NCBI RefSeq assembly: GCF_900108105.1
Contig: NZ_FNUR01000001.1
Span: forward strand, 1 to 64,000
Length of the DNA: 64,000 nucleotides
Reading direction: 5' to 3'
Source: Butyrivibrio sp. Su6
Lineage (GTDB): Bacteria > Bacillota > Clostridia > Lachnospirales > Lachnospiraceae
In this document: piece after piece, positions 31,725-63,835 of the stretch
How positions within the stretch are numbered: the stretch's first letter is position 1
Layout: every line of letters begins with the position of its first letter
Notes under the pieces: generated by a model
Database searches by the model: none
What the model saw: the letters and a program-made list of their open reading frames with translations, nothing else
Told to the model about the DNA's origin: nothing
Position numbers and translations under genes: made by a program

Positions 31725-33713
31725 TTGGAACAAAAAACAGACGACTGGCGAGGATTTGTGCTTGATTTGATATCTTTTGCCAATGGAGGTTTTGACAATC
31801 GAAAAAATACAGATTCGCTTCGAACTTGTTTTGACGGTCTTTATGAAAAAGATAAAGATCTGGGACTGTCAGAGATAAGTTTTTTTGCGCTTATTTTCTA
31901 TGTCTGTAAAGACCTCTATGAGTCCGTAGACAATTCTTTGTCCAAAAAATCCTTATCATATAGAGATATTTGCCTTTATGCCGGATTTATTTTTCCGGAG
32001 AGTTCTTTTGAATGCGAACTTCTATCAGAAAATAGCCTTCTTAATGAGGTTTTTATGGAACCGCTCAGGGAATCGGAAGGACTCTCGCTGTCGGCACCAA
32101 TGAAACTTGAAAGCGGGATAGAGAGCTTTATCTGTGAAAAAAAGCTACCTCTCGGTGAGGCAGAACTTTGCTGCAAAGAAGAATCCTATGAAGAGCTTCT
32201 GAGCCTTGATCTTGAAATGCTTTCCCATAAAGAAGAAATCTTGGAAGCCTGGTCTGTGGTGCAGACGCTTGGTATTCGCCAAAAGAAAGGAATTATTCTC
32301 TTTGAGGGAACCAAAGGCAGAGGAAAGAGATTTGCCGCAAGGCGCCTTTCCTGCCAGATGAAAAAAGGTCTTTTGACACTAAGTCTTAAAAAGTATCTGG
32401 CGCAAAAGGAACAGATGAGGCAAAAGATACTAAAGAGAGTTCTCCAAAAAGTATATCTTGAAAATTATCAGATCTATATAGATTGCAATGGAGAAAGCTT
32501 AGATGATCAGGGCGTTTTGAGAACCCTTACCCAGATTATCTCTTACATACAATTAAGGGCAGATATCCTTGTGGCAGGCTGCGAAAAGAAACCGGGAGGA
32601 AGTATTTCTGATCTTGAAGTTTATGAGATCACTCTCCAGGGACTTAATGAGACAGAGCAGATAGCCATGTATAAATACTTTTCTCAAAGAGAAGATATTT
32701 ATTTTGCAGATGATGTGGATTTCGACAAGATTACTTCCAAGTACAGATTAAATTCAGGTCAGATAAAAGAGGTTTTAGTTAACTGCGCAAAAGATGTGAT
32801 AGGTAAGAATGATTCCGAAACAGATTTTGAAGAGGAATTTATTGTTGACAGACAGGTCCTTGAAAAGAATATCAGAAGTTCCTGCAATGTATCTTTTAAC
32901 GGCCTTGCAACAAGACTTGAAAGTGCATACACCTTTGAAGATATAGCTCTTCCGGATGAGTCATTGAACAAGCTGAAGGAAGTGATAGACAGGGTAATCT
33001 ATAAAAATACAGTGCTTGATAAATATGGCTTTTCCAAAAAGCTTCCCTATGGAAGGGGGCTTGTACTTGCACTTTACGGGCCACCTGGCACAGGAAAGAC
33101 CATGGCTGCCAATGTTCTTGCCAATGAACTTGGACTTGATATATACAGAATAGACCTCTCGCAGATTAGCAGTAAATATGTGGGAGAGAGCGAAAAGAAT
33201 CTTGGGGCAGTGTTTGAAGCCGCAAAAGATTCAAATGTGGTTCTTTTCTTTGATGAGGCAGATGCCCTGTTTGCCAAGAGGACAGAAGTTTCATCCTCTA
33301 ATGATAAATATTCAAACTCGGAGACAGCTTATCTCTTGCAGAAGATGGAGGAATATGAGGGGATTTCGATCCTGGCAACCAATGTAATGCAGAACTTTGA
33401 TAATGCATTCAAGCGAAGGATCACCTATATCATAAGCATCGAAGCTCCCCAGGAAAAAGACAGACTCCTTATGTGGAAGAAGGTATTTCCAAAAGAGGTT
33501 AAGCTCTCTAAAGACGTTAAGTTTGAAGTATATGCAAGATACGCAGATATGCCGGGAAGCAGCATAAAATCTGCTGCCTTATCTGCAGCTTACAAAGCGG
33601 CCGCAGGAGATGGAGTCATAAAGCATGAGGACCTGTGCAGCGCTATTGATGAGGAATACAAGAAAACCGGTCATACCAGTATTCTTAGAGAACTATTATA
33701 TGGGACTTTGTAA
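31725..33713 (+). CDS. CIS-associated AAA+ ATPase (Afp15/Pvc15-like)
   Basis: This 662-residue protein starts at TTG 31725, eight bases after GAGGG. The C-terminal AAA+ domain (about 405-650) has Walker A GPPGTGKT (G452 to T459), Walker B VVLFFDEADALF (D510-E511), a sensor-1-like ILATN and an arginine-containing KRRI stretch. An N-terminal region (about 150-380) includes a degenerate P-loop, GTKGRGKR (195-202), where the usual Ser/Thr is Arg. An ATPase of this arrangement is a conserved member of eCIS loci, where it is thought to act in assembly. Its position heading the operon supports the assignment. The unusual N-terminal pseudo-P-loop may make it a tandem ATPase with one active site. Confidence 0.85.
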   Translation: MEQKTDDWRGFVLDLISFANGGFDNRKNTDSLRTCFDGLYEKDKDLGLSEISFFALIFYVCKDLYESVDNSLSKKSLSYRDICLYAGFIFPESSFECELLSENSLLNEVFMEPLRESEGLSLSAPMKLESGIESFICEKKLPLGEAELCCKEESYEELLSLDLEMLSHKEEILEAWSVVQTLGIRQKKGIILFEGTKGRGKRFAARRLSCQMKKGLLTLSLKKYLAQKEQMRQKILKRVLQKVYLENYQIYIDCNGESLDDQGVLRTLTQIISYIQLRADILVAGCEKKPGGSISDLEVYEITLQGLNETEQIAMYKYFSQREDIYFADDVDFDKITSKYRLNSGQIKEVLVNCAKDVIGKNDSETDFEEEFIVDRQVLEKNIRSSCNVSFNGLATRLESAYTFEDIALPDESLNKLKEVIDRVIYKNTVLDKYGFSKKLPYGRGLVLALYGPPGTGKTMAANVLANELGLDIYRIDLSQISSKYVGESEKNLGAVFEAAKDSNVVLFFDEADALFAKRTEVSSSNDKYSNSETAYLLQKMEEYEGISILATNVMQNFDNAFKRRITYIISIEAPQEKDRLLMWKKVFPKEVKLSKDVKFEVYARYADMPGSSIKSAALSAAYKAAAGDGVIKHEDLCSAIDEEYKKTGHTSILRELLYGTL

Positions 33714-33740
33714 ATAGGAAAAAATAGAAAGGACTAAATA

Positions 33741-35618
33741 ATGGGCAATAATCGTCTGTATCCATTTGAAAAAAACCGTTACTACAAGGGAAAAGAGCTT
33801 GCCAGCGCTGATTTTTTGGCAGAACAGAATTACAGCGTCAACAAGTCCAGATTCATGAACAGCCTTATGTATGGATCCGGTATTGTTTGCGGACTTGGAG
33901 TGTTTAGTCTTGATGATCTGTCCATCCTGGTTGAAAGCGGAGTGGCAATCGACGGGATTGGCAGAGAAATTGTAGTTGACAGTTCTGTGGTTTTAAAGCT
34001 CTCATCCATAGAAGGCTATGAGAATCTAAAAACTTCATCGGCCAGCCTGATCATTAAATACAAGGAGACAGAGGTTCATCCTGTGTATTCCGTAAGCCAT
34101 AAAAATGGTGAACAGGAATATGAGAACAACCGCATAAAAGAGGGCTATGAACTGTCGCTTATCGACAGCGAGGACTATGAGGAGAATTACGATCTTGAGA
34201 CAGAGTTTTTGGCTACAGAAAATCTCTTTTCAAGTGAGAACTATATAGGAAATATCATAATCCCGAACACAGCCTGTAAGGGACGCAATTTCAAGATAAC
34301 TGTTGAGATAAAAAAGCTCACAAATAATCCTTGCAAGATCTCATGCAAGGGAGTGCTGGAGCTTCCTGCTTTTACAACTCCTGATGATGAGAAGACTCTG
34401 GATATAGACATTGATGACCTCAGACTTTCTGCCGGAGAGACCTTTGTAAAAGAGTACTGGGTAAGACTTGATAAGACAAGCGCTATTGACTCAGAGATCA
34501 TCTTAAAGAGCGGATCCTGTTCAGCTTTTGAGGATGACAGGGCAGTGCCTTGTGCCAGCAGTTTTTCCATAAAACTAAAACTCACAGACGCTTCTCCGAT
34601 GGAGCTTGTAAACAGAGCTACAGCCATTATGAATCTGGAAATGAGAAGTGTGGAAGCGGGCGAAAACATCAAGCTTGCAGATATAAGTCTTGTCAGATCA
34701 GAAGGCACCTACATTATCGAAAAGATATCCGAAATCGGTATCAAGAACTATATATCAGCGCCATCGCAGGAACTGTTAAAAAACAGGTATCTTGAGTACT
34801 TTGTAAAAGACGTTGATATAAGGGAAAAGAAAATAAAAGAAAGCTTTGTAGCTGATACAAAAGATAGCCCGGCTCAAAATGCTGACCTTGGCAGATATCT
34901 TGCAACAGGAATACTTGAGATTCCTCTTGGCAAGAATGCAAAGGCAGGCGATATAAGGTATTCCGGAGAAATTGCTCACGGGCTTGGAAAGGGAAATATC
35001 TATGTTTCTATAGGTTATGAGTATATTTCACAGGACAAGACTCTTGGAGCCAATGCCAGAAATACAATTTACGGTAATCCGGAGCTCTTTTCCAAGGAAT
35101 CAGGTCAGTCGGTTGATGCTGAAACTGCCGTAAGAGTTCTAAATGATAAGGGAAGCTTTGTAGTTGCAGCAAGACTTTTAAGAGATGTTGAATATCTGGT
35201 TCTCACCTACAGATGGATCGCCATTAAGTTTGCATCAGGCGATGAGAGCGATGTGGTTGATTACTATTATGACAAGTCAATTACCGCTGAGACTCCGACA
35301 ATTGTTATGGGACCTAAGACCAATCACTTCTTCGGAGTAAGGTTTAACAACATGAAAAACTGCAGTATAACCTATGAACTTACGTCTCCTGGAAGTGGCG
35401 AGATCACTGCAGATGGTATTTATACTTCACCTGCCAAGGAGGGCGTATATGAGATAAGGATCTATTGCACTGATATGCCTGTTATCTGCACATACGCTTA
35501 TGCAATTGTTAAAAAAGAGCAGGAAAATCCCGATGCTGAGCCCGTAAGCGGCCCTGCAGGGGAAGATAAGATTGCTGAAGGATTTACGCTGGATGTACCG
35601 GAACTGAAGATGAAATAG
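33741..35618 (+). CDS. Conserved CIS-associated protein, function uncertain
   Basis: This 625-residue protein begins with RYYKGKELASADFLAEQNY and then NSLMYGSGIVCGLGV. These phrases match a pattern I associate with proteins found in many CIS loci, generally 'YY.G..L.A.DF..EQ.Y....R...N..L.G.GVV.GL'. The rest is beta-rich (about 150-600), with a bacterial Ig-like C-terminal part (GEITADGIYTSP). There is no signal peptide or membrane helix. The gene follows the ATPase by 27 bases. A structural or baseplate-peripheral role is likely, but no precise function is assigned. Confidence 0.5.
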   Translation: MGNNRLYPFEKNRYYKGKELASADFLAEQNYSVNKSRFMNSLMYGSGIVCGLGVFSLDDLSILVESGVAIDGIGREIVVDSSVVLKLSSIEGYENLKTSSASLIIKYKETEVHPVYSVSHKNGEQEYENNRIKEGYELSLIDSEDYEENYDLETEFLATENLFSSENYIGNIIIPNTACKGRNFKITVEIKKLTNNPCKISCKGVLELPAFTTPDDEKTLDIDIDDLRLSAGETFVKEYWVRLDKTSAIDSEIILKSGSCSAFEDDRAVPCASSFSIKLKLTDASPMELVNRATAIMNLEMRSVEAGENIKLADISLVRSEGTYIIEKISEIGIKNYISAPSQELLKNRYLEYFVKDVDIREKKIKESFVADTKDSPAQNADLGRYLATGILEIPLGKNAKAGDIRYSGEIAHGLGKGNIYVSIGYEYISQDKTLGANARNTIYGNPELFSKESGQSVDAETAVRVLNDKGSFVVAARLLRDVEYLVLTYRWIAIKFASGDESDVVDYYYDKSITAETPTIVMGPKTNHFFGVRFNNMKNCSITYELTSPGSGEITADGIYTSPAKEGVYEIRIYCTDMPVICTYAYAIVKKEQENPDAEPVSGPAGEDKIAEGFTLDVPELKMK

Positions 35619-35634
35619 TTCTTAAGGAGTGCCA

Positions 35635-36480
35635 ATGATTTTTGAGTCATCAAAAATGAAATTGGAAGTCATTAGTACAAAGCTTATCGGTGAAACTAAT
35701 GACTGCTACATATGTAAAGACTTAAAGTCTTCCGGTGGAAGTCTTTATACAGTTATTGTGGTCAAGGACCATGAATGTATAAAGAATGTTCTGGAAGCTT
35801 TCAGGCGCCTTGACCTTGTTGAGAACTCCGCCCTTGTTGACAGCTTTGCCTGTGAAGGAATCCATGTTCTTGTTTTCCCATACAGGAGGGAAAGGAACCT
35901 CTTTGATTTCTATGCAGGAGAACTGTACAGCTTAAAGGTGTGTGAAGACATATGTATCAACACGATCATAGCCTGTATGCAGCTGGCACTTCCCTATCAG
36001 TTATTGTATCTTCTTTTGACCCAGAACCAGCTTAATCTGTCATCAGACAACAATATATTTATGAGCTATGCCATAGATCTTAAGGATTTTGATCTTAATA
36101 TCACTGAGAAGGATTGCGTAGTAGAGTGCGCGAGAATAATCCTGGTGCTTCTTGAGGCAAAGGCTTCACAGAAGGCCAACAGCTTTATCCTTCTTCAGAA
36201 AAAAAGTGCCAACAGAAGCTATTCAAAGTTCTCAGAGCTTTATAGGGACATTACTATAGCGGCAGTTGGAGATAAGAGAATATCACTGTTTGGCAGGTTG
36301 AAGCTATGGCTTTCACTTTATTCGAATTATATATTCGGTGTTCTCTTTTGGATATGCGTAATACTTGGAATTATCGCACTGAGTCTTATTATATCAAGAT
36401 TTGTACTCGGAAATGGCTCGTGGCTTAGGATCATATTCAATAATTTCAAGAATATTGGAACAGAATCGCTTGTACAGTAG
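35635..36480 (+). CDS. Pseudokinase-like protein with C-terminal membrane helix
   Basis: This protein is about 281 residues from the ATG at 35635, five bases after AAGGAG; a GTG at 35629 overlaps that site and is unlikely. Residues 1-200 follow a protein-kinase-like order. YTVIVVKDHE resembles the beta3 lysine strand, GIHVLVFPYRRERNLFDFY resembles the hinge, NQLNLSSDNNIFMS resembles the catalytic loop (xxDNxxx), and AIDLKDFDLN lies where DFG would be. HRD and DFG are not intact, so it is probably inactive as a kinase. One membrane helix spans about 229-255, leaving the kinase-like domain in the cytoplasm. It may be a signalling adaptor or docking protein for the CIS. Confidence 0.5.
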   Translation: MIFESSKMKLEVISTKLIGETNDCYICKDLKSSGGSLYTVIVVKDHECIKNVLEAFRRLDLVENSALVDSFACEGIHVLVFPYRRERNLFDFYAGELYSLKVCEDICINTIIACMQLALPYQLLYLLLTQNQLNLSSDNNIFMSYAIDLKDFDLNITEKDCVVECARIILVLLEAKASQKANSFILLQKKSANRSYSKFSELYRDITIAAVGDKRISLFGRLKLWLSLYSNYIFGVLFWICVILGIIALSLIISRFVLGNGSWLRIIFNNFKNIGTESLVQ

Positions 36481-36498
36481 TTCGTGGTGAGGGATAGC

Positions 36499-38913
36499 AT
36501 GAATATAAGAAAGAGGTTGTTACCAATAATTTATATAGTGAGTATAGCTGTATCAGCGGTTATCTTTGCGTTTGTCATGTCCAGAAACGTTCATGATACA
36601 GAATACACATCCTATACCAGATCTCTTGTTACGAACGAGGGAATCTATTTTAGTGAAAATCTTGAGGATTTTGCGCTGCTGTACAGACTTACCAGCAAGG
36701 GCAAAGTCAAAAATGTCTATAACAGCGCAGATATCGATCAGGAAAGGATTCTTGCCCTTACAGTTTATGACGGCAATCTATATGTTGCTTTTTCAAAAAC
36801 TGAAAATGATGACGAGTACCAGGAGGGCAAGCATTACGAGTACTGCATCGGAGAGTTTAATACAAAGCTGAATCTTTTACAAATTTCAAGTGAATTTCAT
36901 CTGGATGAAGATATTCTTTCATCCATTACAGTAGACAACAGCGGAATTTATGTGACTGCGATCTCAAAGGATGGCGGACAGGTAAGGGTTGTATCTTTTT
37001 CACATGATAAGATGGCAAGTCCGTCAGAAAGAGGACACGAGATACATGCCACAGAAAACGTGATGATAAGAAAGGCTGATCCTGAAAGATTCTTTGTATC
37101 TGCAATTTATGAAAACGGCGGCCTGACTATCAGGACCGACGAGGATGAGCCATCAGGATATTTTGCACAGGATGAAAGAGTTTCAGCTGCAGTATCATCC
37201 ATGTCTTTGTCGGCACCTGCAGAATTCATAATGTACAGGGCTTACTTCATTGTATGGATAGCTGGAACAATCATCTGGCTCATCATAGTAAGGCTTATTT
37301 ACAACATGCTGATAGTTTCAAACAGGACAATGTATTCCTTTGTTCTGTTCGAGATTATTCTGGCGATACTTGTTGGATGCAGCATCTATTACATAAGTGG
37401 CCAGTATATGACAGCCAGAAAGCAGGAGCATGTCAGGTTTGGAATCATTTCAATGCAGGCTCTTGCAGATGAATCCGGACTTACAAGAGCCGTTGATTAT
37501 GGAGCCCAGGATTATTTTGAAAGTAATGACTATTTTGAGACGCAAAATGCTCTGACAGATTTCCTTGAAAGAAATGGCAACTCTTCAGTATTTTACGATG
37601 TTCTTATCGTAAGACTTGCTGATGGCATGGTTGTTACAAGCGGAAGTGGAAGGAACAACGAAAGCGCTGTATTTCTTTTCGGAAATGCAATTTCAGATGT
37701 TATAGATGATCTTCATAACAGCACAGCAATGTATTCGGTATGCGAGCTGTACCTTGGCGGAGAGGATTGCCTGGCAGTAGGTGTAGCGGATGATGATTTC
37801 ATCTCTGACTATGCGATCGTAGGAATTATCGATGATACAAGGGTCAATGAGAGATTTAATAAGAGTAACTTTTTCTACGTAGTTCTTTTTATAGCCCTGT
37901 TCGCTGTCGGCAGTCTGATACTTTTGGGCATTTATTATCTTAATTCAAGAGATCTTAAGCATCTTGAGGATGCCCTTCGTGAATGTGCACTTGGAAGAAA
38001 GATTCCCGACAGACCTGCAACTGCAGGAGTTGATCTGAAAAATATGTGGGATTCTCTTTTTGAAATAGGAAAGAGAGTAGATGAGATCAACTATAAGAGA
38101 TTTAAGGTATTTGAAGCATATTTTAAATATGCTCCTAAAAATATTGAATTTGCTCTGGGCAAAGAATCAATTATGGATGTCAAAAATGGTGAAAGGACAA
38201 AGATTGATGGAAGGCTTTTGACGATCCAGCTTGGGGAGGGACTTGAAAAGGAGCTTCTTTTATCAGTGACCACAGCCCTTGAGCAGAGGCAAAAAGGAAA
38301 TGACTGTATCCTTGTTGGAAACAGTACAGACCTTTCAAGACTCCAAATGCTGTTCATGATGTCGGATAAACCTATGGTGGACTATGCAGCAGAGATCATT
38401 CATGACATCAACATGCATGGAAATGTCTTTAATTCAGCCTTTATTTTCTTTGACACCTTCGAGTTTGGAATAGTTGGAAATGACGGGCTTGCACTTACAT
38501 ATCTGGACGGCGACATATCAAAAGAGTTTACAGGTTATGTTGAGTTCTTTAACAGGCTCCACTTAGGACTTGTTATAACTGAGTACATCTATCTTAGAGA
38601 GTATGAGGACAGGTCAGTCAGGTATATAGGCTATATCAAGTGCGAGAAGTACACAGAAAATATCAAGCTTTATGAAGTTATGGATGCCTGCGGACAAAGC
38701 GAAAGGCATGCCAAGATCCACACCTCAAGACTCTTTAAGGAAGCTCTTGAGACTTATGAGAAAAAAGATTTTTATCTGGCAAGAAATATGTTTTCAGATC
38801 TGCTAAAGGCAGCTCCCGGTGACGAACTTTCAAGGTGGTATCTGTTTGAGAGTGAGAAGTACTTAAATAACGGAATTGCTGACGAAGCTACCTTTGGGGC
38901 ACTTCATCTGTAA
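36499..38913 (+). CDS. Membrane sensor with degenerate class III nucleotide cyclase-like domain
   Basis: This protein is about 804 residues from the ATG at 36499, which has GTGAGGG (36487-36493) upstream. A membrane helix at ~6-25 precedes an extracytoplasmic beta domain (to ~235). Two helices (~240-300) lead to a second extracytoplasmic Cache-like region, and a fourth helix spans ~456-480. The cytoplasmic part resembles a class III cyclase homology domain followed by a TPR-like tail. RLLTIQLGEG sits where VTVLFADIRGFT normally is, ALTYLDGDISKEF occupies the xYTVIGDxVNxA position, and LVITEYIYL matches the closing strand. The tail LETYEKKDFYLARNMFSDLL is typical of such cyclases. The metal-binding aspartates are not evident, so it is probably a pseudo-cyclase sensor. 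This assignment is by motif order only. Confidence 0.5.
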   Translation: MNIRKRLLPIIYIVSIAVSAVIFAFVMSRNVHDTEYTSYTRSLVTNEGIYFSENLEDFALLYRLTSKGKVKNVYNSADIDQERILALTVYDGNLYVAFSKTENDDEYQEGKHYEYCIGEFNTKLNLLQISSEFHLDEDILSSITVDNSGIYVTAISKDGGQVRVVSFSHDKMASPSERGHEIHATENVMIRKADPERFFVSAIYENGGLTIRTDEDEPSGYFAQDERVSAAVSSMSLSAPAEFIMYRAYFIVWIAGTIIWLIIVRLIYNMLIVSNRTMYSFVLFEIILAILVGCSIYYISGQYMTARKQEHVRFGIISMQALADESGLTRAVDYGAQDYFESNDYFETQNALTDFLERNGNSSVFYDVLIVRLADGMVVTSGSGRNNESAVFLFGNAISDVIDDLHNSTAMYSVCELYLGGEDCLAVGVADDDFISDYAIVGIIDDTRVNERFNKSNFFYVVLFIALFAVGSLILLGIYYLNSRDLKHLEDALRECALGRKIPDRPATAGVDLKNMWDSLFEIGKRVDEINYKRFKVFEAYFKYAPKNIEFALGKESIMDVKNGERTKIDGRLLTIQLGEGLEKELLLSVTTALEQRQKGNDCILVGNSTDLSRLQMLFMMSDKPMVDYAAEIIHDINMHGNVFNSAFIFFDTFEFGIVGNDGLALTYLDGDISKEFTGYVEFFNRLHLGLVITEYIYLREYEDRSVRYIGYIKCEKYTENIKLYEVMDACGQSERHAKIHTSRLFKEALETYEKKDFYLARNMFSDLLKAAPGDELSRWYLFESEKYLNNGIADEATFGALHL

Positions 38914-38931
38914 TAAAGGAGAGGGGTCTAA

Positions 38932-40155
38932 GTGCAAAACCTTTTTACTGTTTTAGTCCAGACAATTAAATCAAGATGGGCCGGCCTGGTATCCAAGTTA
39001 AAGCTTCTTACTAACTGGAACTTTATCAGGACCAAGATAATAGCCAAGATTCGTGACTTCTTTTACAGTTTCCTTAACCTAAAGCCACGAAATAAAAATG
39101 ACTATATTACGGTCTTTGGCTGGATGATATCAAGGCGCCTTGTCCATGCAATGATCATTGTTATAGGTGTTTTAAGTATTTATTACATTGCATCTGAGAC
39201 CTCAATTTTCAAGCAGTTCGGACAAAACGGTGGAATTAAGACTTACAAGTATGATTCCGTGAGACTAAGACTTGTCAGTGATAATGTCAGGATAACCGGG
39301 AAGTCAGGGTATCTGGCCTATGAGGGACAGGTTGAAAAGGGCTATGTTACAGGGAAAGGTACCCTTTACAGCAAAGAAGGGAATGTTGTCTATGAAGGTG
39401 ACTTTGTAAACAACAAGTATGAGGGACAGGGACTTTTAAATTATCCAAGTGGCAATACCATGTACACAGGACAGTTCCACGATAATCTCTTTGACGGAGA
39501 GGGAACTTTATACAGAGAAGATGGGACCTTTGAATATATTGGAGAGTTTGATCTTGGAGAAAAGAACGGAAAAGGCGTCCTTTATGACAATGGTGAAAAT
39601 GAGATCTACTCAGGTGCATTTTCCAGTGACAGCATAGTTTACAGTGAACTTTTGGGCAAAACAGTTCAGGAGGCCGCAGACTACTATAAGGGCAGTCAGG
39701 TTCTTTATCAGATGGATGATGACATCGCTGTATATATGAAGCAGATAGAAGGAGTTTATTACGGAAAAGGGGAAGAGGATTCCCTTGATGACAGCATCAA
39801 AATAGAATCTGTCTATGTTTTAAAAGATTATTTTGGATATGGAAACACCAATATAGATACCATAACAAAGCTGAAAAGTATTTTAGGAGACCCAATATAT
39901 GAGGGCAACTCCACAGTTGTTTTTCCTGAGGTTGTATGTATAAACAAGCTCAACGAATCAGAAAATTCCCTAAGCGGAAGGGTAACTGTATCCACAACTG
40001 AACTCTATTCAGATGTTATCGAAGTAAATGAATTTGATAACAAGTACGTTGTATATATCTATTCCTTCAGAAGAGGAGACCTTATTTATTCATTTGTCTG
40101 CAAGGGACAGGGCGAATACTTTGATTTTTACTACGTTTCTGCAGCAGATGCCTGA
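38932..40155 (+). CDS. Membrane-anchored MORN-repeat protein
   Basis: This 407-residue protein starts at GTG 38932 behind AAGGAGAGGGG. It has a cytoplasmic N-terminal region of about 68 residues, one membrane helix (~70-92) and an extracytoplasmic part. At least four MORN repeats span ~135-225, with phrases such as VYEGDFVNNKYEGQG, MYTGQFHDNLFDGEG and YIGEFDLGEKNGKG. The C-terminal ~180 residues are an unrecognised mixed domain. MORN repeats often mediate membrane or protein contacts. The gene lies between the cyclase-like sensor and the TolC-like protein and is probably part of the same envelope assembly. Confidence 0.7.
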   Translation: MQNLFTVLVQTIKSRWAGLVSKLKLLTNWNFIRTKIIAKIRDFFYSFLNLKPRNKNDYITVFGWMISRRLVHAMIIVIGVLSIYYIASETSIFKQFGQNGGIKTYKYDSVRLRLVSDNVRITGKSGYLAYEGQVEKGYVTGKGTLYSKEGNVVYEGDFVNNKYEGQGLLNYPSGNTMYTGQFHDNLFDGEGTLYREDGTFEYIGEFDLGEKNGKGVLYDNGENEIYSGAFSSDSIVYSELLGKTVQEAADYYKGSQVLYQMDDDIAVYMKQIEGVYYGKGEEDSLDDSIKIESVYVLKDYFGYGNTNIDTITKLKSILGDPIYEGNSTVVFPEVVCINKLNESENSLSGRVTVSTTELYSDVIEVNEFDNKYVVYIYSFRRGDLIYSFVCKGQGEYFDFYYVSAADA

Positions 40156-40209
40156 CATTTTTTGTTTTCGTTCGTATCAATATAAAAGTTTTTTGATTTT
40201 GAGGTATAC

Positions 40210-42264: not shown

Positions 42265-42277
42265 AGGACTGTAAAGT

Positions 42278-45010: not shown

Positions 45011-45022
45011 TAGGAGCAGTGT

Positions 45023-46425: not shown

Positions 46426-46807
46426 ACTTGTAACGGCTGGAGCTACATGCATGTGTTCCTTCGGAACAGCACCTGCTCCACTAAAGGTTACCTCGCAGCT
46501 AAAGGTCCTTGCAAGCGGCAAACCTGTGGCAACTATCCAGGATTGTCAGGGACTTGCAAACATAGGGCCCTTTGGAATGTGTACGACCCTTACAAATCCA
46601 ATGGTGGCATCAGCCACAGCAGCTGCTTTGGGAGTCCTGACCCCCCAACCCTGTATTCCTGTTCCGGCAGGAACATGGATACCAACTCATCCAAAGGTAC
46701 TAAACAGCGGTAAGCCTTGTCTTACCTCTGACTGCAAGATGATGTGTGCATACGCAGGGCAGGTTTCGATTGTTAATCCAGGCCAGATCAAAGCTACAGC
46801 TAACTAA
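46418..46807 (+). CDS. PAAR-like spike tip protein (DUF4280)
   Basis: This 129-residue protein starts at GTG 46418 with a strong AAGGAGGTGG (46405-46414) and overlaps the upstream gene by eight bases. It shows the DUF4280/PAAR-like layout: TAGATCMCSFGTAP at the N-terminus, FGMCTTLTNP, PQPCIPVPAGTW, then GKPCLTSDC and MMCAYAGQVSIVNPGQ. Eight cysteines are spaced as for metal or disulfide stabilisation of a small beta cone. PAAR proteins cap the spike and can carry effectors. No extension domain is present here, so it is a bare tip. Confidence 0.85.
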   Translation: MSELVTAGATCMCSFGTAPAPLKVTSQLKVLASGKPVATIQDCQGLANIGPFGMCTTLTNPMVASATAAALGVLTPQPCIPVPAGTWIPTHPKVLNSGKPCLTSDCKMMCAYAGQVSIVNPGQIKATAN

Positions 46808-49083: not shown

Positions 49084-49110
49084 AATAAACACATATAGAG
49101 GAGGCACATG

Positions 49111-53684: not shown

Positions 53685-53705
53685 GATTTTTGTAAGGAGA
53701 TGCCT

Positions 53706-54608: not shown

Positions 54609-54622
54609 GGGGTTACTTAGGG

Positions 54623-56279: not shown

Positions 56280-57092
56280 ATGCCACTTTTTGATATTTTT
56301 GATGAAGTAGCTCAAAAGCAGATAGAAAAGACTGACCTTGGTGAGAACAGGATGCTGGGGGTATATCTGGGAAAGGTTACGTCAAATTTTGATATGACTC
56401 TTCCGGGAATGGTGAGAGTTACCATTTATGCAAGGGATTATGATCAGGAAAAGCAGGTATGGGCGAGGATGAGCTATCCATACAGTGGCAGCAACTGGGG
56501 AGAGTACTTTTGCCCTGAAGTTGGAGATCAGGTTCTCATAGCCTTTGAAAATGGCAATATATCAAGGCCCTATATTATTGGCAGCGTTCCAAAGAGCACA
56601 GACAGGTTTGCCAAGGGTTGCATTGATATGAATAATGCCAATAAAAAGATCCGAACGAAAAATGGAAATTCCATTTCTTTTGTTGATAAAGCTGTAGGAG
56701 AAGGAGCCATGGACAAGATAACCATCTCAACTTCTACAGATGCCCATCAGATCGAGCTAAACAATGAGGGCAAACAGATCGTCATAACAGACAAGGATAA
56801 GTCCAACCAGATAGTTATGAAGACTGAAACAGGTCAGATGGAGATAAAGGCACAGACCAAGCTGACAATAAAGGTTGGAGAGACAATAGAGCTTACCATG
56901 AACGGCAATAACGGAACGGTTCTGCTTAAGTGCAATAAGCTAAAAACAGATGTTACCAATCAGGTTCAGATATCGGCAAACAACAATACAAAGATCGAGG
57001 GCGGAAATGTGTCACTGACAGGTAACTCAATGCTAAAGCTCGAGAGCAGCGGACCTGTAAATATATCTGGAACACCAATAAAACTTGGATGA
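56280..57092 (+). CDS. Spike protein (gp5-like OB fold and beta-helix)
   Basis: This 270-residue protein has an N-terminal OB-fold region with VYLGKVTSNFDMTLPGMVRV, VWARMSYPYSG, EYFCPEVGDQVLIAFENG and SRPYIIGSVPK, the standard gp5/VgrG OB pattern. It is followed by a repetitive beta-helix (~110-270) with IKVGETIELTMNGNNGT-type turns. It forms the central spike beneath the tube, capped by the PAAR-like protein. The ATG at 56280 follows AAGGAGG. No catalytic lysozyme domain is present, unlike T4 gp5. Its stop precedes the gp25 gene start by 13 bases. Confidence 0.85.
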   Translation: MPLFDIFDEVAQKQIEKTDLGENRMLGVYLGKVTSNFDMTLPGMVRVTIYARDYDQEKQVWARMSYPYSGSNWGEYFCPEVGDQVLIAFENGNISRPYIIGSVPKSTDRFAKGCIDMNNANKKIRTKNGNSISFVDKAVGEGAMDKITISTSTDAHQIELNNEGKQIVITDKDKSNQIVMKTETGQMEIKAQTKLTIKVGETIELTMNGNNGTVLLKCNKLKTDVTNQVQISANNNTKIEGGNVSLTGNSMLKLESSGPVNISGTPIKLG

Positions 57093-57105
57093 TCGGGGTA
57101 AAAAG

Positions 57106-57564
57106 ATGGCAGATAATGGAGCACATTTAGGGACAGGTGCAAAGTTTCCCTTTGAAATTGATAAGGCGACAGGCAGGTTTATGACAGTATCAGGCAATCA
57201 GAGCGTCAAGGAATCAGTCTATATTATCCTGATGACTCAGCTGACTGAGAGGATCACAAGGCCTGATTTTGGCACGGATATCATGGGCTATACCTTCATG
57301 GATGTGAATCTTACCAGGATCAATATGATGCGCCGAAGCCTTACCAATATGATATCAAGGCAGGAGCCACGTATCAGCGATGTGGAAATAAATATAGAAA
57401 TGTCGCCAAGTCAGGAGTACCTGATGATAAATATCGATTATTACGTGGCCCAGACCAACACAAGAGATAATATGGTATTTCCTTTCTACCTTAATGTTTC
57501 CGAAGAGGAAGAGCTTGAAGAAGAATATCACGAATCTGAGATAGAGGAAGAGATTGATGGATAA
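57106..57564 (+). CDS. Baseplate wedge protein gp25 (Afp9-like)
   Basis: This protein is 152 residues from the ATG at 57106, seven bases after CGGGG. A TTG at 57085 is in frame but overlaps the preceding stop. Its pattern is typical gp25: GTGAKFPFEIDKATGRFMTV, QSVKESVYIILMTQLTERI, RPDFGTDIMGYTFMDVN and ISDVEINIEMSPSQEYLMIN. It is the small wedge component that contacts the sheath initiation site. The C-terminus is Glu-rich. The stop overlaps the next ATG by eight bases. Confidence 0.9.
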   Translation: MADNGAHLGTGAKFPFEIDKATGRFMTVSGNQSVKESVYIILMTQLTERITRPDFGTDIMGYTFMDVNLTRINMMRRSLTNMISRQEPRISDVEINIEMSPSQEYLMINIDYYVAQTNTRDNMVFPFYLNVSEEEELEEEYHESEIEEEIDG

Positions 57565-60500
57565 ATTCAAGGGACATACTGCTGAAGAAATAGAAAACAG
57601 GATAATAGAGCTAAGTCACAGCTATACGCCTGAATGGCACTATGACAAGGAAAATCCGGATATAGGTGCAGCAATAGCCAGGATATTTGCCTCCCAAATG
57701 GAGGACAATGTTGGTATTTTGGATGATGTCCTTGAAAGATATCATGCGGAATTTGTAAATTTCCTTGACCTTACTTTAAAGCCTGCAAAGCCTGCCAGCA
57801 GCATTGTTGTATTTAACAGTATCGACAATGGCGGTGACGGGACTGAGGTTGTGCGTGGAACTAAGCTCCTTGCAATGTCTGATGGGGGAGAAGGGCAGGA
57901 TATTGTCTTTGAGACAACAAGGAATCTTTTTGTGACTAATTCAAGGCTTGACCTTATCTTTATGGTGGACTATGAGGAGGGGTCAGTTATTCCTCTTTTG
58001 GGGCAGATGGCTCCGATTGAGATTTACGAGGGAGAGCTAAAGGCTGATCCTTTGGAAGAAAGTGAGATTGAAGAAGATGTAATGCCGGTTGAGCCGGTAC
58101 TACAGCCGTTTACTTTATTTGGTGAGAAGGAAGGGTCTATTTGCAGGAGCGTTTTATCTCTTTATCACAGCTCACTTTTTGATGCCCAGGACGATCCTAT
58201 ATTTATCAGGTTTTCAGGTGGAGAAAGGCTCTGCAGCCTCATAAGTGAAGGAAAGATTGTTTTTAAGTATCTTACAAAAGATGGCGGCAGGGAGTTTGAT
58301 GAGGTAGCTCTTTTGGAAGATGGGGTTACCTTCAGGCTCATCAAAAAAACTGAGTGTGAAAAGCTGGAAATTGGCGAAAAGGAGCTTTCTTTAGTGTATC
58401 TGGAGGCTCTTGTTCCTGTAAGAGAAATCCTGAAAGCAACAGAAATTGGCATCTCATCAAGTGGAGCAGAGCTTGAGCCGGAGTTTGTTACTGATGGAAA
58501 TCTTGAGTACAACAAAAAATCTTTTGATATGTTTACAGACACTATTGCAATTTACAATGAGTGTTTTATTGGGCATGACAGATATTTCAACAAGCCCGGA
58601 GCTAAGGTGAACATATCTTTTGATGTGTCTTTTTTGGAAAAAGAGCTGTATGTCACAGCGAAACAGGAAGAAGAGGAGCTTAGTATCATTAAGAGAAAGC
58701 CAAAGGCAGTCTGGACTGATAAGGTCGTAGATTCTGTTATAAATGAGATTTCTTTTGAATATTATAACGGCCTTGGCTGGAAGAAGCTTTCTTGTGACTA
58801 TGATGTCTCAACTATATTTGAGCAGTGTAAGGACGGCAAATATGAGATTTCTTTTACCTGTCCTGATGATTGGGAGCCTGTGGAGGTGGGAGCTTATTCA
58901 GGCAGATGTATAAAGCTTCAGATTCTGAAGGCAGACAACTGTTACCTCAGGCCTGCAATTCATCATTATCCGCAGGTAAAGAACATGGTAATGTCCTTTA
59001 CCTATGAGGGAAAGTATGTAAATCCTGATAAAGCTGAAATGATATGCGGAACGAAAAAGGTTGATATCACAGGAAATCTGGATGAAGAAGAATTTGAGAT
59101 CCTGGCAGGCAGCGATTACACAGGTGATGCCCTGTATCTTGGATTTTACAGAGCTATGAAGGCAGGCCCCATAAGCATTTTCTTCGATCTTGAGGATGCC
59201 TTTGGACTTACCGGCATCAAGTGCAGATATGAATACAGCACTATTGACGGTTTTAAGCCTCTAAGAGTACTTGATTTTACGGATGACTTTACAAGGCCCG
59301 GAATAATAAGATTTATTCCGCCTTCTGATATGCATGAGATGACCATAGAAGGACAAAAGAGATATTACATCAGGATTGTCAGAAACGAAAGACAATCTGA
59401 TCCGGATAGACGCATGTTCATGCCCAAAATAAGAAATATCATGCTGAATGCTATTTCTGTTGAGAATATTTTTACCAGTGATGCCAAGGAGTTTTTCATT
59501 GATGAAAGTGCTCCGGATATGCATTTTTCTCTTGGGGCAGGGAATATCCTTGACGCGGAAGTCTGGGTAAATGAAAAGGGAGATATTTCAAAACAGGAAA
59601 TAGACTTTTTGCTCAACAATTCACCGGACAGTATAAGGATTGATTACAACTTTGTGGGGGATGTTGCTGCAGTCTATGTGAGGTGGCAGGAGACAGAGAA
59701 CTTTGACAGGGCTCTATCTGACAGGTGTTACGTTATAGACAGGCTTCTTGGTGAGATCATTTTTTCTGATGGTATAAAGTGCAGGATACCGAGGGTTACG
59801 GATGATATAGCTTTTGTTGCTGTTGTGAGGTGCACAAACGGGACAGAAGGAAATGTTGAGGCTTTTCGAATAAATGACCTGATGGGACAGGGAGTCTACA
59901 TAGACTCACTTACAAACCCTGTAAAGGCCTATGGCGGCTGCGCTATGGAGACTATTCAGAAGGCTCTAAGGAGAGGTGCCGGGATCATTCATTCAAGAAA
60001 CCGCCTTGTGAGCATCGGAGATTATGAGAATATTATCCTTAACTATTCGGACTCTATAGACAAAGTCAGTACCGTGGTCGGAGAGACAATAGATGGTAAA
60101 AAGAATCCGGCAGACATAACCTTTGTAGTTCTGATGAAGGACTTCATGAACGGCTCATTTTCTTTTCACAATATCGAAAAGCAGCTGAAGATGCACCTTC
60201 TTAAGAACTGTGAGATGGTGGTAAAAGAAGACAATGTCCATATTGTTGAGCCAACATTTGTAGACATTTCGGTTAATGCCTGGGTTGAAATCACAAATAT
60301 CGATGACAGCTTTGAGATACAGAACCAGATAAAAGCGGTTCTGCAGGAGTACTTAAATCCTGTAACTTACATATCTCATACGGGATGGACAATAGGAACT
60401 ATACCTAAAAAGTCTCAGATACTCATGAGACTCAATATCTTAAAGAGCAAAGCTATTGTCAAGAGAATAGCCATTATCTGTAAATATACGGATTACATGG

Positions 60501-60592
60501 GTGAAAAAGAGGTTGATCTTACAAAGCTTGAAGTTACGCCATTTATGATATGTCGAAGCGGTGATCACGTTATCAATATCATCTATGACTGA
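57557..60592 (+). CDS. Baseplate J/gp6-like wedge protein 1 (Afp11-like)
   Basis: This protein is 1011 residues from the ATG at 57557, after GAGGAAGAG; the gene overlaps gp25 by eight bases. It begins EEIENRIIELSHSYTPEWHY and NPDIGAAIARIFASQMEDN, characteristic of the long wedge protein in eCIS. A large beta-rich middle (~230-780) resembles the insertion domains seen in Afp11-like proteins. The C-terminal region contains AYGGCAMETIQKALRRGAG and SIGDYENIILNYSDSIDKV, the baseplate J-like signature. It forms the main wedge arms of the baseplate. Confidence 0.85.
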   Translation: MDKFKGHTAEEIENRIIELSHSYTPEWHYDKENPDIGAAIARIFASQMEDNVGILDDVLERYHAEFVNFLDLTLKPAKPASSIVVFNSIDNGGDGTEVVRGTKLLAMSDGGEGQDIVFETTRNLFVTNSRLDLIFMVDYEEGSVIPLLGQMAPIEIYEGELKADPLEESEIEEDVMPVEPVLQPFTLFGEKEGSICRSVLSLYHSSLFDAQDDPIFIRFSGGERLCSLISEGKIVFKYLTKDGGREFDEVALLEDGVTFRLIKKTECEKLEIGEKELSLVYLEALVPVREILKATEIGISSSGAELEPEFVTDGNLEYNKKSFDMFTDTIAIYNECFIGHDRYFNKPGAKVNISFDVSFLEKELYVTAKQEEEELSIIKRKPKAVWTDKVVDSVINEISFEYYNGLGWKKLSCDYDVSTIFEQCKDGKYEISFTCPDDWEPVEVGAYSGRCIKLQILKADNCYLRPAIHHYPQVKNMVMSFTYEGKYVNPDKAEMICGTKKVDITGNLDEEEFEILAGSDYTGDALYLGFYRAMKAGPISIFFDLEDAFGLTGIKCRYEYSTIDGFKPLRVLDFTDDFTRPGIIRFIPPSDMHEMTIEGQKRYYIRIVRNERQSDPDRRMFMPKIRNIMLNAISVENIFTSDAKEFFIDESAPDMHFSLGAGNILDAEVWVNEKGDISKQEIDFLLNNSPDSIRIDYNFVGDVAAVYVRWQETENFDRALSDRCYVIDRLLGEIIFSDGIKCRIPRVTDDIAFVAVVRCTNGTEGNVEAFRINDLMGQGVYIDSLTNPVKAYGGCAMETIQKALRRGAGIIHSRNRLVSIGDYENIILNYSDSIDKVSTVVGETIDGKKNPADITFVVLMKDFMNGSFSFHNIEKQLKMHLLKNCEMVVKEDNVHIVEPTFVDISVNAWVEITNIDDSFEIQNQIKAVLQEYLNPVTYISHTGWTIGTIPKKSQILMRLNILKSKAIVKRIAIICKYTDYMGEKEVDLTKLEVTPFMICRSGDHVINIIYD

Positions 60593-60617
60593 AAACTAAG
60601 TAAAGGTTGGGAAGACT

Positions 60618-62708
60618 ATGCTGTTTGTAAAGGAATTACAAAACAAGCCCTATGCAGAGCGAATAAGTGAGGCAATGATGAAATTGCCTTTGATATCTCC
60701 CGAGTGGACAAACTATAACCCTTCAGACCCTGGGATAACTGTGCTTGAAAATCTGACAGCTTTTAATACTCTTCAGGGCGAGTCAATCACGAATATTTCC
60801 TACAGGGCCAAGGCTGCACTTCTAAAAATGGCATCAATCACGCCAAAAAAGGGTAAGTGCGCAAGACTCCTTTTATCTGCTGACAAGCTTGATAAACCAA
60901 TCTATATAAGGACAGGTCAGAAATTCAGACTTGGAGATCTGTGCTTTGAAGCCGGAAGAAACATGAATGTGGGTGGAAGCAGAGTAGTTGGTGTGTACTC
61001 AAGATATGGTGATACATTCCACGATTATTCCTACTGTGTAGACAGAGAGGTAAGGCTGGGAGCAAGGATTTTTGGTGATAAGCCAAAAGTCGGTGATGAG
61101 CTTTACTTTATCATCAATTCAATTCCGGACGATATCAAGGATACTTACTTTTACTTTGAAGTTGATGGCAGCAACAAACGTAATCCCGTTGAAGACAGAG
61201 CCTTAAATATATTTGCGGATGCAAAGTGGGAGTACTATACAGAGCATGGTTTTGAGGAATTGAAGGTACGAGATTATACAGGCACTTTCCTATATAGCGG
61301 AGAAGTGAAGATTTCTTTTGGAAGCTCAAGGCCTGCAGTTTGCAAGGAGGCTCCGGAAGAAGGGTACTGTATCAGGGTTACTCTTACCAAGGCTGATTTT
61401 GACGTAAGACCAAAACTCCTTGGAGTAGAGGGATTTCTTTTTGAGGTGTGGCAGAGGGAAACTGAAGGTATATGCTATACCATAAACAAAGTTGACGGTA
61501 TTGAAATAACATCAAATTTCAGCGATAATGAATATATAGCAGTATTTGCAAAGGAAGAGAAGGGATCAGCCTATAGAAAGTACGAACTCACAAGGGGTGA
61601 CGGTCATGGAAGGTATTGCTACTTTGAAGAGACGGGCAGCCGCAGTTTTCGTATTTCTTTTGACAAGGAAAAATATGGGTATGAGCCTGTTAAAGTAAAG
61701 GACTGCGTAAGAGTCATTATCTATAACGAGGACATGATGCGCACCTATGATGTGGGCAGCGTTATAGGCTATGATGATCAGGAAATAGAGCTTCCTGTAA
61801 AGCATATAGTAAGAGACAGCTTCTGCCTGATCGCCAGAAGGGATGACGGAGAAGGCGGCTTTATCTATGAGTTTGTAAGACCTGAGAAAAATGAAGAGGA
61901 TGCTCTTTATTATCATCTTCTTGAGAATGATGGAAAGATAATCATTGAAGATGCAGGGGATTATATAGGTGCAAGGCTCTATATCGGCATGATAGCTGTA
62001 AGTGAGGGCGAAAAGGGAAATATCCTTGCAGGAAATGAGCTTATAGCAGATAACATACCGGGTGCTTATTTTTATAATCCTTGTAACGGCGTTGGAGGGG
62101 CCTTTAGAGAGAGCCTTCAGAGCATGAAGGAAAGATTCGTTGAAGATATAAACACTCCATATACAGCTGTTACTGAAAAGGACTATGAGCAGATAGTAAA
62201 GACAACGCCGGGGCTCTGTATCAGAAAGGTTCACGCCTGCATAGATACAGCGGAAAATATGGTAAAGGTAATAGCAATGCCTGACACCGGCGATGAGAAG
62301 CCCTATTTGTCTGATATTTACATTGAAAAGATTACGGAAAGACTTGAGCAGAGAAGGCTTATTTCTACAAGAGTTGAGATTATACAGCCAATTTATACGC
62401 CGGTTGCAGTAAGAGGCACGGTGTACGTAAAGAGGCACTATAACGGGTGCAAAGAAAAGATATTAGAAGCTCTTGGCAGAGAGATTGATTATATGAGGTC
62501 GGATAAGAACTTTGGAGATGTCCTTGTATTTGAGGAGGTTTTCCATAGTATAGAGGCGCTGGACTGTGTTCAGTTTGTCTACGACCTTTCAATCACACCT
62601 GAAAATCCTAAGGTTGCAACACTTAAGGATTCTGATATTTACCCAAAAGAGAACTGCCTGTTTAGTCTTGGAAATGTCCAGATTGAAACAGTTACCTATG
62701 AAGACTAA
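60618..62708 (+). CDS. Baseplate J/wedge-like protein 2 (Afp12-like)
   Basis: This 696-residue protein begins RISEAMMKLPLISPEWTNYN and PSDPGITVLENLTAFNTLQG, the typical entrance of the second wedge protein. Beta domains follow (~80-440). The C-terminal part carries FRESLQSMKERFVEDINTPY and TAVTEKDYEQIVKTTPG, which match baseplate J-like proteins, then VRGTVYVKRHYNGCKEK and a helical end. It pairs with the larger J-like protein to build the wedge. The start ATG follows a modest GGTTGGGAAG. The stop lies 23 bases before the gpI-like gene. Confidence 0.85.
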   Translation: MLFVKELQNKPYAERISEAMMKLPLISPEWTNYNPSDPGITVLENLTAFNTLQGESITNISYRAKAALLKMASITPKKGKCARLLLSADKLDKPIYIRTGQKFRLGDLCFEAGRNMNVGGSRVVGVYSRYGDTFHDYSYCVDREVRLGARIFGDKPKVGDELYFIINSIPDDIKDTYFYFEVDGSNKRNPVEDRALNIFADAKWEYYTEHGFEELKVRDYTGTFLYSGEVKISFGSSRPAVCKEAPEEGYCIRVTLTKADFDVRPKLLGVEGFLFEVWQRETEGICYTINKVDGIEITSNFSDNEYIAVFAKEEKGSAYRKYELTRGDGHGRYCYFEETGSRSFRISFDKEKYGYEPVKVKDCVRVIIYNEDMMRTYDVGSVIGYDDQEIELPVKHIVRDSFCLIARRDDGEGGFIYEFVRPEKNEEDALYYHLLENDGKIIIEDAGDYIGARLYIGMIAVSEGEKGNILAGNELIADNIPGAYFYNPCNGVGGAFRESLQSMKERFVEDINTPYTAVTEKDYEQIVKTTPGLCIRKVHACIDTAENMVKVIAMPDTGDEKPYLSDIYIEKITERLEQRRLISTRVEIIQPIYTPVAVRGTVYVKRHYNGCKEKILEALGREIDYMRSDKNFGDVLVFEEVFHSIEALDCVQFVYDLSITPENPKVATLKDSDIYPKENCLFSLGNVQIETVTYED

Positions 62709-62731
62709 GCGTTTGGCATAAAGGAGTTTTG

Positions 62732-63835
62732 ATGGCTCAGATGGTGTATTCCATAAAAAAGAATAGACTAAAGAGAAGCTATATTAAAGGCTTTGATTTA
62801 AATGGTGATACAGAGCTTGTTCTTGATAAGAATAGTCTTTTTCACGAGATATTTTTATCGCCTTTAGACGGCGTTGAGAATGAGAGATACTGGGGAAGGC
62901 TCCATTTTGATATCAGGCTTTCAGAGGACATGATCTACTATGTCCATGTGCTTGCAACAGACCAGGATCAGTATTATGACGACGATGGAAGGCTTGTTGA
63001 TATAAGCAGATACCTTCTTGATGAAAGTATTGACGTCACCAGAAAGGCCAGATTTATATCGGAACTTGGCGGCAAAAGATTTGTTGGCCTTAACGATATT
63101 CTTTTATATGAACTAAAGGGTAGATACCTTTATATAGGCATTGAGCTTTATGGCACAGAAGAAGCTACAATTTCCAACATCAAAGTGGATGCCATAGGCG
63201 ATAATTTCATGAACGCTTTTCCGGAGATCTATAAGGAGAGGAATAGTTTTTTCCACAGGTATATGTCGCTGTTTTCAAGCGTTTACAACGATATGCAGGA
63301 TGAGATAGACCATGTCTATGAGGTGCTTGATCTTGATACCTGCAGTACAGAGCTTTTGGTTACTTATGGAAGCTGGCTTGGAATCGACTTAAGTGGCGGC
63401 TTTTTGCCGGATGATGTTCTTAGGACCTTGGTAAAAGAACTCTACTATCTCAGCAAGATAAAGGGGACAAAAGAGTGTCTGACAAGGCTTTTGGAGATTT
63501 TAATCGGTAAAGAAATTATCGTAATTGAGCACAGTTATCTAAAGAATTTCGCACAAAATGTCGATACACATATATCAGAGGGAATTGGAAGTGGCTCGGT
63601 TTATGACGTTACTGTGCTGGTAAAGGGAAAGGTTTCTGAGGAATTAAAGCATCAGGTGTCCTTTATCATAGACCAGTTCAAACCGATCAGATCTAACATT
63701 ACTTTGGTTCAGATGGACAATTCGGCAGTGCTTGATTCTAATGCGTTTATGGATATGAATGCAATGATCCCGCATGAGAAACAGATTATCCTGGACGAAG
63801 ATGTATCTTTGGATGGCATTATTACCCTAAAATAA
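62732..63835 (+). CDS. Phage tail protein I-like baseplate component
   Basis: This protein is 367 residues from the ATG at 62732, five bases after AAGGAG; a TTG at 62729 is less likely. An N-terminal beta region (about 1-150) precedes a helical segment with NAFPEIYKERNSFFHRYMS, YNDMQDEIDHVYEVLD and DVLRTLVKELYYLSKIKGTK. The run 'LLVTYGSWLGIDLSG' and 'LTRLLEILIGKE' matches the gpI-like family of tail-edge proteins. It probably sits at the outer baseplate, where fibres attach; no fibre gene follows within the window. It lies 15 bases before the STAS gene. Confidence 0.7.
   Translation: MAQMVYSIKKNRLKRSYIKGFDLNGDTELVLDKNSLFHEIFLSPLDGVENERYWGRLHFDIRLSEDMIYYVHVLATDQDQYYDDDGRLVDISRYLLDESIDVTRKARFISELGGKRFVGLNDILLYELKGRYLYIGIELYGTEEATISNIKVDAIGDNFMNAFPEIYKERNSFFHRYMSLFSSVYNDMQDEIDHVYEVLDLDTCSTELLVTYGSWLGIDLSGGFLPDDVLRTLVKELYYLSKIKGTKECLTRLLEILIGKEIIVIEHSYLKNFAQNVDTHISEGIGSGSVYDVTVLVKGKVSEELKHQVSFIIDQFKPIRSNITLVQMDNSAVLDSNAFMDMNAMIPHEKQIILDEDVSLDGIITLK

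Follow-up and report, generated by a model that had tools for sequence, protein, structure and literature searches.

Known membrane-attached contractile injection systems

Contractile injection systems (CISs) attached to a membrane are already known, namely, the type VI secretion system (T6SS), the thylakoid CIS (tCIS) of Anabaena and the CisA-linked CIS of Streptomyces. According to the excerpted text of PMC8894136, the N-terminus of the Anabaena Cis13 protein binds the baseplate and its C-terminal helix enters the thylakoid membrane; with this helix removed, 9 of 14 particles were seen free-floating. As for Streptomyces, the CIS depends on the membrane adaptor CisA for contraction and function, and the cisA gene lies in the slot that follows the baseplate genes (PMC12237407, excerpted text); the particle there works within the cell that made it. 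The present analysis concerns an operon of extracellular CIS (eCIS) type in Butyrivibrio sp. Su6 that carries, ahead of its particle genes, a series of genes for membrane and exported proteins. The operon occupies positions 31725–63835 of the stretch analyzed here (contig NZ_FNUR01000001.1, 64,000 nucleotides, hereafter the window), which belongs to a genome of 3.7 Mb.

In many gut and rumen Clostridia, the CIS genes are accompanied by a fixed set of genes for membrane and surface proteins, which suggests a machine that stays attached to the cell envelope and is not merely set free. The pseudokinase and MORN-repeat protein genes of this set are its wide core, and the genes of a TolC-like protein and of a secreted helical protein mark one clade. 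A literature search on a pseudokinase–MORN membrane module gave no description of it among the matches listed.

The locus shares with the tCIS an eCIS-type core and a CIS13-family fibre, and membrane attachment is the property that was seen for the tCIS (PMC8894136, excerpted text). There, Cis13 itself bears the membrane helix, whereas the CIS13-like protein of the window has no predicted C-terminal helix and separate bitopic proteins are encoded adjacent to it. Likeness to the Streptomyces CIS with CisA (PMC12237407, excerpted text) lies in the single-membrane host, a predicted one-helix protein with the N-terminus inside and, in most loci of the second sheath clade described below, the slot after the baseplate genes. 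The differences are two bitopic proteins (one with a kinase fold, one with MORN repeats), a sensor and exported proteins; in addition, the membrane genes of the window precede the particle genes instead of following the baseplate genes. An S. clavuligerus gene used in a comparison has no clear helix and was not taken as evidence on homology to CisA. A T6SS would work alike, with a contractile tail docked inside and fired outward; it differs in that the core here is of eCIS type, Omp85 has no match in the window's genome, and no TssJ, TssL or TssM family match was obtained in the Pfam scans of 35 window proteins, to which the search for these families was confined. The latter result agrees with an earlier sequence-only reading of the window, which had seen no TssJLM-type complex.

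In secretion machines of single-membrane bacteria, a cytosolic pseudokinase domain is likewise joined to a membrane helix in the YukC/EssB protein of the type VII secretion system (T7SS) and in TraF of the type IV secretion system (T4SS) (PMC13037476, excerpted text). Unlike them, the window's pseudokinase has no Pfam match at E ≤ 0.01, and about 28 residues lie outside in place of a second soluble domain. Paenibacillaceae eCIS loci have a related sheath, AAA ATPase, Pvc16 and CIS13-like protein; the pseudokinase was found in 0 of 7 of their genomes, and a MORN gene stands next to the locus, adjoining the CIS13-like gene, in one of three inspected. The hosts of the T6SS of subtype iv (T6SS-iv) and of the Bacteroidales injection system (BIS) are Bacteroidota, which have a double membrane. 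For these systems a Cis13 homologue was proposed as an anchoring aid, and the excerpted text of PMC12210884 describes no pseudokinase–MORN module. Finally, a 2026 catalogue of eCIS fibres defines a fibre-anchor class of Bacillota and Actinobacteriota, with no mention of a membrane module in the excerpted text (PMC12923769).

Layout of the operon

The operon comprises 23 genes, every one on the plus strand, and the gaps between them do not exceed 59 bases, with the sole exception of 212 bases after position 49473, among the particle genes. According to Pfam scans, the particle section represents an eCIS-type set in a single cluster (Pvc16, sheath, tube, CIS_tube, baseplate V, gp25 and J, plus the AAA ATPase). 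Ahead of the particle genes there are seven genes, encoding the AAA ATPase, the CIS13-like protein and five membrane or exported proteins; the gaps from the 31725 gene to the 45023 gene are 27, 10, 3, 18, 54, 13 and 12 bases. The open reading frames were located at the positions given by the sequence-only reading, which had also placed all genes from 31725 to 45023 on one strand with no gap above 60 bases. Its five membrane or exported genes in this interval were borne out; the gene at 33741–35618 had been left uncounted.

Co-inheritance of the membrane genes with the sheath

An even draw of 200 genomes of the family, the window's own among them, was searched (G and L numbers below denote genomes and locus stretches, respectively). 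The sheath was present in 21 genomes. Strong pseudokinase relatives were detected by profile search in 19, all of them sheath-positive, and the MORN protein, counted only at E ≤ 1e-30, in exactly the same 19. The TolC-like protein was found in 11 genomes and strong matches of the secreted protein in the identical 11, all sheath-positive. The sensor search matched 168 of the 200 genomes at E ≤ 0.001 and was counted only at E ≤ 1e-40; such strong matches occurred in 17 genomes, 16 of which were sheath-positive. Fisher P values against the sheath were 1.2e-24 for the pseudokinase, 1.2e-24 for MORN, 9e-13 for the TolC-like protein, 9e-13 for the secreted protein and 2e-18 for the sensor; these tests used strong matches only, and the P values overstate independence since the genomes are related. 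Co-inheritance, like the gene content and gene order described below, is a direct observation.

Partial pseudokinase matches (E 5e-4 to 2e-7) in the sheath-negative genomes G120, G124, G151, G166 and G193, as well as a second partial match in G016, represented short segments of longer frames and were left out of the count, as were marginal secreted-protein matches in the sheath-negative G067 and G019. In a draw of 398 genomes of the phylum, the pseudokinase was strong in seven; five of these were outside the family, and in all five it stood beside CIS genes. Six of the 13 phylum matches (E 1e-5 to 6e-4) were set aside as short stretches in longer frames.

The sequence-only reading had treated the five genes as one set and had asked whether homologous CIS loci routinely lack them and whether they occur without a CIS. 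The core is not routinely lacking, the pseudokinase and MORN being present in 19 of the 21 sheath-positive genomes; the TolC-like and secreted proteins are present in 11 of 21 only. In the family, no strong match was obtained without a sheath, apart from one sensor relative. The single set thus gave way to two layers, a broad core of pseudokinase, MORN and mostly the sensor, and an exported pair restricted to one clade.

Gene order and sheath phylogeny

A sheath scan of species genomes yielded at least 583 confirmed loci, of which the best 80 were used as named loci. They are not independent of the family draw: the sheaths of L087, L113, L141 and L143 are identical to those of G180, G176, G022 and G188, respectively. 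A PAAR-like gene, as we take the DUF4280 gene to be, lies just ahead of the sheath in 45 of the best 80. The visible genes were collinear in all 45 (MORN, TolC-like, secreted, Pvc16, a protein without family match, PAAR-like), given that many of these stretches end early and some lack one of the genes. The conserved order expected by the sequence-only reading therefore holds for the 45 scored loci; the other sheath clade mostly has another arrangement.

A scripted count gave the TolC-like gene in 26 of 31 loci; in L087, L094 and L098 the gene was present and was missed by the distance limit, in L101 the upstream flank is taken up by two genes for secreted proteins and the TolC-like gene may lie beyond, and L134 belongs to the other clade. 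The secreted-protein gene was counted in 31 of 34, the remainder being L134 and L151 of the other clade and L083, which has a divergent TolC-like gene and no recognized secreted-protein gene. Eight and seven stretches in two sets were mapped gene by gene; L177 and L182 fall outside this mapping, and L177 was scanned for order. Most loci of the other clade contain baseplate genes followed by CIS13-like, pseudokinase, MORN and Pvc16 genes, with the sensor in several. In G086, L134 and L151 of the same clade, the module stands before the sheath and the exported pair is not present.

A quick sheath tree of 101 rows was constructed, 12 of them unlabelled; for named loci, lacking a gene means that it was not seen in the stretch, which covers at least 5 kb before the sheath. 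All 53 rows with a TolC-like or secreted-protein gene fell into one 57-row clade with a support of 100. The labelled rows of this clade without exported genes were L120 (Faecalicatena orotica) and G046. The label required three changes on the tree versus a shuffle mean of 28, and it is most simply explained by one gain and two losses of the exported pair. Because of this pattern, the wide core is distinguished from an exported pair gained once. The window's sheath grouped with those of rumen Lachnospiraceae, with G041 and a metagenome-assembled genome (MAG) of Butyrivibrio at the shortest path distance.

Outside the family, a MORN match starting at profile position ≤35, the membrane helix included, was found in all seven Paenibacillaceae genomes. 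The pseudokinase was present in six of the eight non-Paenibacillaceae named genomes searched, the two without it being a Peptostreptococcaceae MAG and F. orotica.

Several single loci deserve a remark. The L120 sheath is shorter by about 70 internal residues, and one further core gene was recognized there; G046 (L052) has a lone sheath, most CIS genes being not present. The L143 record is labelled Bacteroidales and its sheath is that of G188, a member of the window's family; this is probably a label or binning error.

Predicted properties of the membrane and exported proteins

The kinase fold and the membrane topology of the module proteins are predictions. Membrane segments were taken from a crude hydropathy scan, in which false positives occur (a sheath segment at 302 was flagged); marginal segments appeared at 46 in the 33741 protein and at 112 in the 35629 protein.

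The gene at 33741–35618 encodes a CIS13-like protein of the fibre or baseplate periphery (625 aa). Its residues 8–149 match NCBIfam CIS13_fam with E 1.1e-23, at 84 bits, below the curated cut-off of 370. The family was matched by 14 of 14 aligned members including the window protein, the matched stretch being seen for the window protein only; 16 relatives were present in the fetched family loci. No C-terminal membrane helix was predicted, the maximum 19-residue hydropathy past residue 150 being 1.16 in the window protein; across the members, this value was ≤1.5 in 13 of 14 and 1.68 in one. Docking helices may come from the neighbours of this protein.

The next gene (35629–36480) encodes a putative bitopic pseudokinase of 283 aa, with a cytosolic kinase fold, a single strong C-terminal helix at 237 in the hydropathy scan, and a conserved IGT tail outside. 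The predicted structure is a kinase-like fold with no catalytic Asp, and the Asp of the HRD motif was found at the aligned position in 0 of 51 sequences, in a weak alignment (E 0.05). The topology, predicted from charge only, leaves about 28 residues outside. Pfam gave no family at E ≤ 0.01 and thus no YukC match, a YukC model being presumably included in Pfam. YukC/EssB is not among the structural neighbours listed for the pseudokinase, to which no weight as evidence is given. The named relatives, among 120 listed of 224 matches, are hypothetical proteins of Lachnospiraceae and Butyrivibrio; 45 of the 120 were taken into alignment A6.

The protein encoded at 36484–38913 (809 aa) is a predicted membrane sensor with four strong helices and a weakly cyclase-like cytosolic domain. 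The sensor profile matched an adenylyl cyclase chain with E 0.028, and Guanylate_cyc was matched with E 0.051 in one of nine members; HAMP was found in three of nine, the window's sensor being without it. Accordingly, of the cyclase-like sensor proposed in the sequence-only reading, the four-helix membrane protein stands and the cyclase likeness has weak backing.

The gene at 38932–40155 encodes a bitopic MORN-repeat protein (407 aa, PF02493, E 2.8e-13) with one helix at about 65–80, predicted to have the N-terminus inside and the repeats outside. The positive-inside bias supports this orientation in 10 of 12 members and is equal in the other two.

As for the exported pair, the gene at 40210–42264 encodes a TolC-like (OEP) protein of 684 aa (PF02321, E 2e-8; 34.7 bits versus a cut-off of 22), and the gene at 42278–45010 encodes a mostly helical protein of 910 aa with a copper-amine-oxidase-N1-like end domain. 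Signal-like N-terminal segments were flagged in both. No Omp85 was found, so an outer membrane that could house the TolC-like protein is probably missing. The length of the secreted protein ranges between 734 aa (G104) and 1739 aa (L101). Its gene is duplicated in tandem in L087 (same genome as L027), L094, L098 and L101, with copies of up to 1739 residues.

Possible modes of action

The reading that we prefer, with a rough probability of 0.55, is an eCIS-type CIS that stays inside the cell producing it, where the pseudokinase–MORN pair docks it to the cytoplasmic membrane via the CIS13-like protein, with a sensor gate and a clade-specific exported extension. The CIS13-like protein (33741) would occupy the rim of the baseplate. 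This protein, or the baseplate, may be bound by the kinase-like cytosolic domain of the pseudokinase (35629), acting as a hub, and the single helix and conserved IGT tail of the pseudokinase could link this contact through the membrane to the MORN protein (38932), with outward-facing repeats that would form an oligomeric collar. An outside or wall signal could be read by the sensor (36484), which would relay it to the particle docked there. For one clade, the TolC-like protein and the long helical, stalk-ended protein may lengthen the assembly so that it spans the wall or reaches onto the surface, and firing would be outward through the cell's own envelope. We infer all physical contacts, the outward direction, gating, docking and particle attachment.

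Several observations weigh against docking. Two sheath-positive genomes have no pseudokinase, G006, where the contig ends, and the lone-sheath G046; G085, G104 and G176 have no strong sensor match and keep the rest of the module. A sensor relative occurs in the sheath-negative G125 (L178:13517–16267), on a 36.8-kb contig with no other core CIS gene barring a weak AAA match with helices. The TolC-like and secreted genes were seen in no row of the other clade, and the absence of the pseudokinase from the seven Paenibacillaceae CIS genomes with a related sheath indicates that such a particle needs none in principle. Moreover, the predicted structures are of single chains, so that module–particle contacts are conjectural, the topology comes from a scan that flags the sheath too, and operon membership alone equally fits regulation or self-protection. 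The membrane-docked, signal-gated injection system of the sequence-only reading is consequently retained in part: co-inheritance and conserved order argue for it, the two gene layers and the Paenibacillaceae CISs without a pseudokinase argue against it, and docking and gating would be its conjectural elements.

If the particle is held at the envelope, Gram-positive bacteria would have their own equivalent of the T6SS. The question of how phage-tail-like machines exit from, or act within, single-membrane bacteria would gain candidates for a docking complex that are testable gene by gene, and CISs would become a further case, besides the T7SS and T4SS, of a monoderm secretion machine with a membrane pseudokinase for its hub. 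The fullest version, a T6SS counterpart permanently docked by pseudokinase and MORN and gated by the sensor, which in one large gut and rumen clade fires via a wall-spanning passage of the TolC-like and stalk-ended proteins, is put forward tentatively.

A possible alternative, of about the same standing as that version and compatible with docking, is that the pseudokinase, the MORN protein and the sensor form part of the particle and the TolC-like and stalk-ended proteins form a surface structure or adhesin for cell–cell contact, not a conduit. In line with this, the exported pair is a layer of its own, with a distribution on the sheath tree compatible with one gain and two losses, Omp85 has no match, and the secreted protein is variable in size (734–1739 aa) and duplicated in some loci, as is often the case for surface proteins. 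Against it, the exported genes of that clade lie between MORN and the particle genes wherever both sides are visible (in L083, the TolC-like gene only), and strong matches to the pair never occurred without a sheath in the 200 genomes.

The main rival to docking, which we regard as rather unlikely, is a Streptomyces-like mode, in which cytoplasmic particles are recruited by the membrane module and, under envelope stress, fired into the membrane of their own cell. The outcome would be regulated death or lysis with release, and the module would then be a trigger, not a conduit. This mode is favoured by most loci of the other clade sharing the genomic slot of CisA and its predicted one-helix, N-in design (PMC12237407, excerpted text), by STAS-type regulator and histidine-kinase-like ATPase genes near the CIS, and by the related sheaths of Streptomyces, those on plasmids being 42% identical. 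It leaves unexplained the two exported proteins of one clade, which should not reach the cytosolic side.

Less probable still is a released eCIS with accessory genes, the membrane proteins serving self-protection or expression control and never touching the particle. The core genes are indeed eCIS genes, and the Paenibacillaceae relatives do without the pseudokinase; the tight operon, the visible gene order fixed in 45 of 45 scored loci, the identical genome sets of pseudokinase and MORN and their bitopic design speak against such a role. A phage-tail remnant or mobile phage tail that has picked up unrelated membrane genes at its side can be practically dismissed, since, although the sheath, tube and baseplate belong to phage-tail families, a pattern-based scan of viral contigs confirmed 0 pseudokinase relatives, all 1224 phage sheaths were under 60% identical (the eight listed, 26–32%), and no capsid family was matched among the 35 window proteins scanned.

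Particle genes and flanking regions

All genes of this section that carry family E values within the operon are on the plus strand. The first gene of the operon (31725–33713) encodes a CIS-associated AAA ATPase of 662 aa (PF00004, E 4.5e-31); of the 20 family genomes fetched, 9 have relatives close to the CIS, their position being not constant, and a second AAA gene is located downstream of the window. The particle genes begin with a Pvc16_N protein (45023–45616, PF14065, E 1.3e-29), presumably the tube terminator or cap. It is followed by a conserved CIS protein with no Pfam or PHROG match (45622–46425; relatives in 12 of 20 fetched family genomes), the DUF4280 tip (46418–46807, PF14107, E 1.7e-32), the sheath (46828–48528; PF04984, E 6e-17; PF17482, E 1.7e-14) and the tube (48551–49048, PF06841, E 1.5e-29).

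Further downstream are a tail-assembly-chaperone-like protein (49108–49473, PHROG 508, E 1.1e-8), a second tube-like protein with an extension (49686–50837, PF06841, E 4.7e-4, below cut-off) and a protein without Pfam or PHROG match, whose size varies by locus and whose position suggests a tape-measure role (50872–52743). Two CIS_tube genes starting at 52746 and 53700 (52746–54608, PF19266, E 3.1e-13 and 1.5e-14) precede a YQBQ-like protein, which we take to be the hub (54623–56248, PF24032, E 3.2e-4, below cut-off). The baseplate genes encode a baseplate V or spike OB protein (56280–57092, PF04717, E 3.1e-19), a gp25 wedge (57085–57564, PF04965, E 1.3e-16), two J proteins starting at 57554 and 60618 (57554–62708, PF04865, E 0.0044, below cut-off, and 1.9e-9) and a Tail_P2_I-like protein (62729–63835, PF09684, E 6.4e-5).

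Upstream of the operon, three large genes at 1049–9536 show a weak likeness to Fam20C kinases (E 6e-4 to 2.4e-3, below cut-off), and the region 10438–18969 encodes a 2843-residue protein with 0 Pfam matches at E ≤ 0.01. Immediately after the operon, a STAS gene starts (63851–64000, plus strand, PF01740, E 3.7e-15) and continues beyond the window, where an FtsE-like ABC ATPase gene follows (TIGR02673, E 8e-71, below cut-off); the pair was located at 63851–64000 and L002:851–1866. A STAS (anti-sigma-antagonist-like) gene also follows the CIS in G041, G080, G180, G129, G149 and G104, and not in G085; the FtsE-like gene stands beside it in G041, G080 and G129. In addition, a histidine-kinase-like ATPase that has N-terminal helices is encoded, together with an exported SH3 protein, at 25572–27076. 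Relatives of the ATPase lie near the CIS in G041, G080, G180 and G129, and those of the SH3 protein in G041 and G080, with a short SH3 match in G196.

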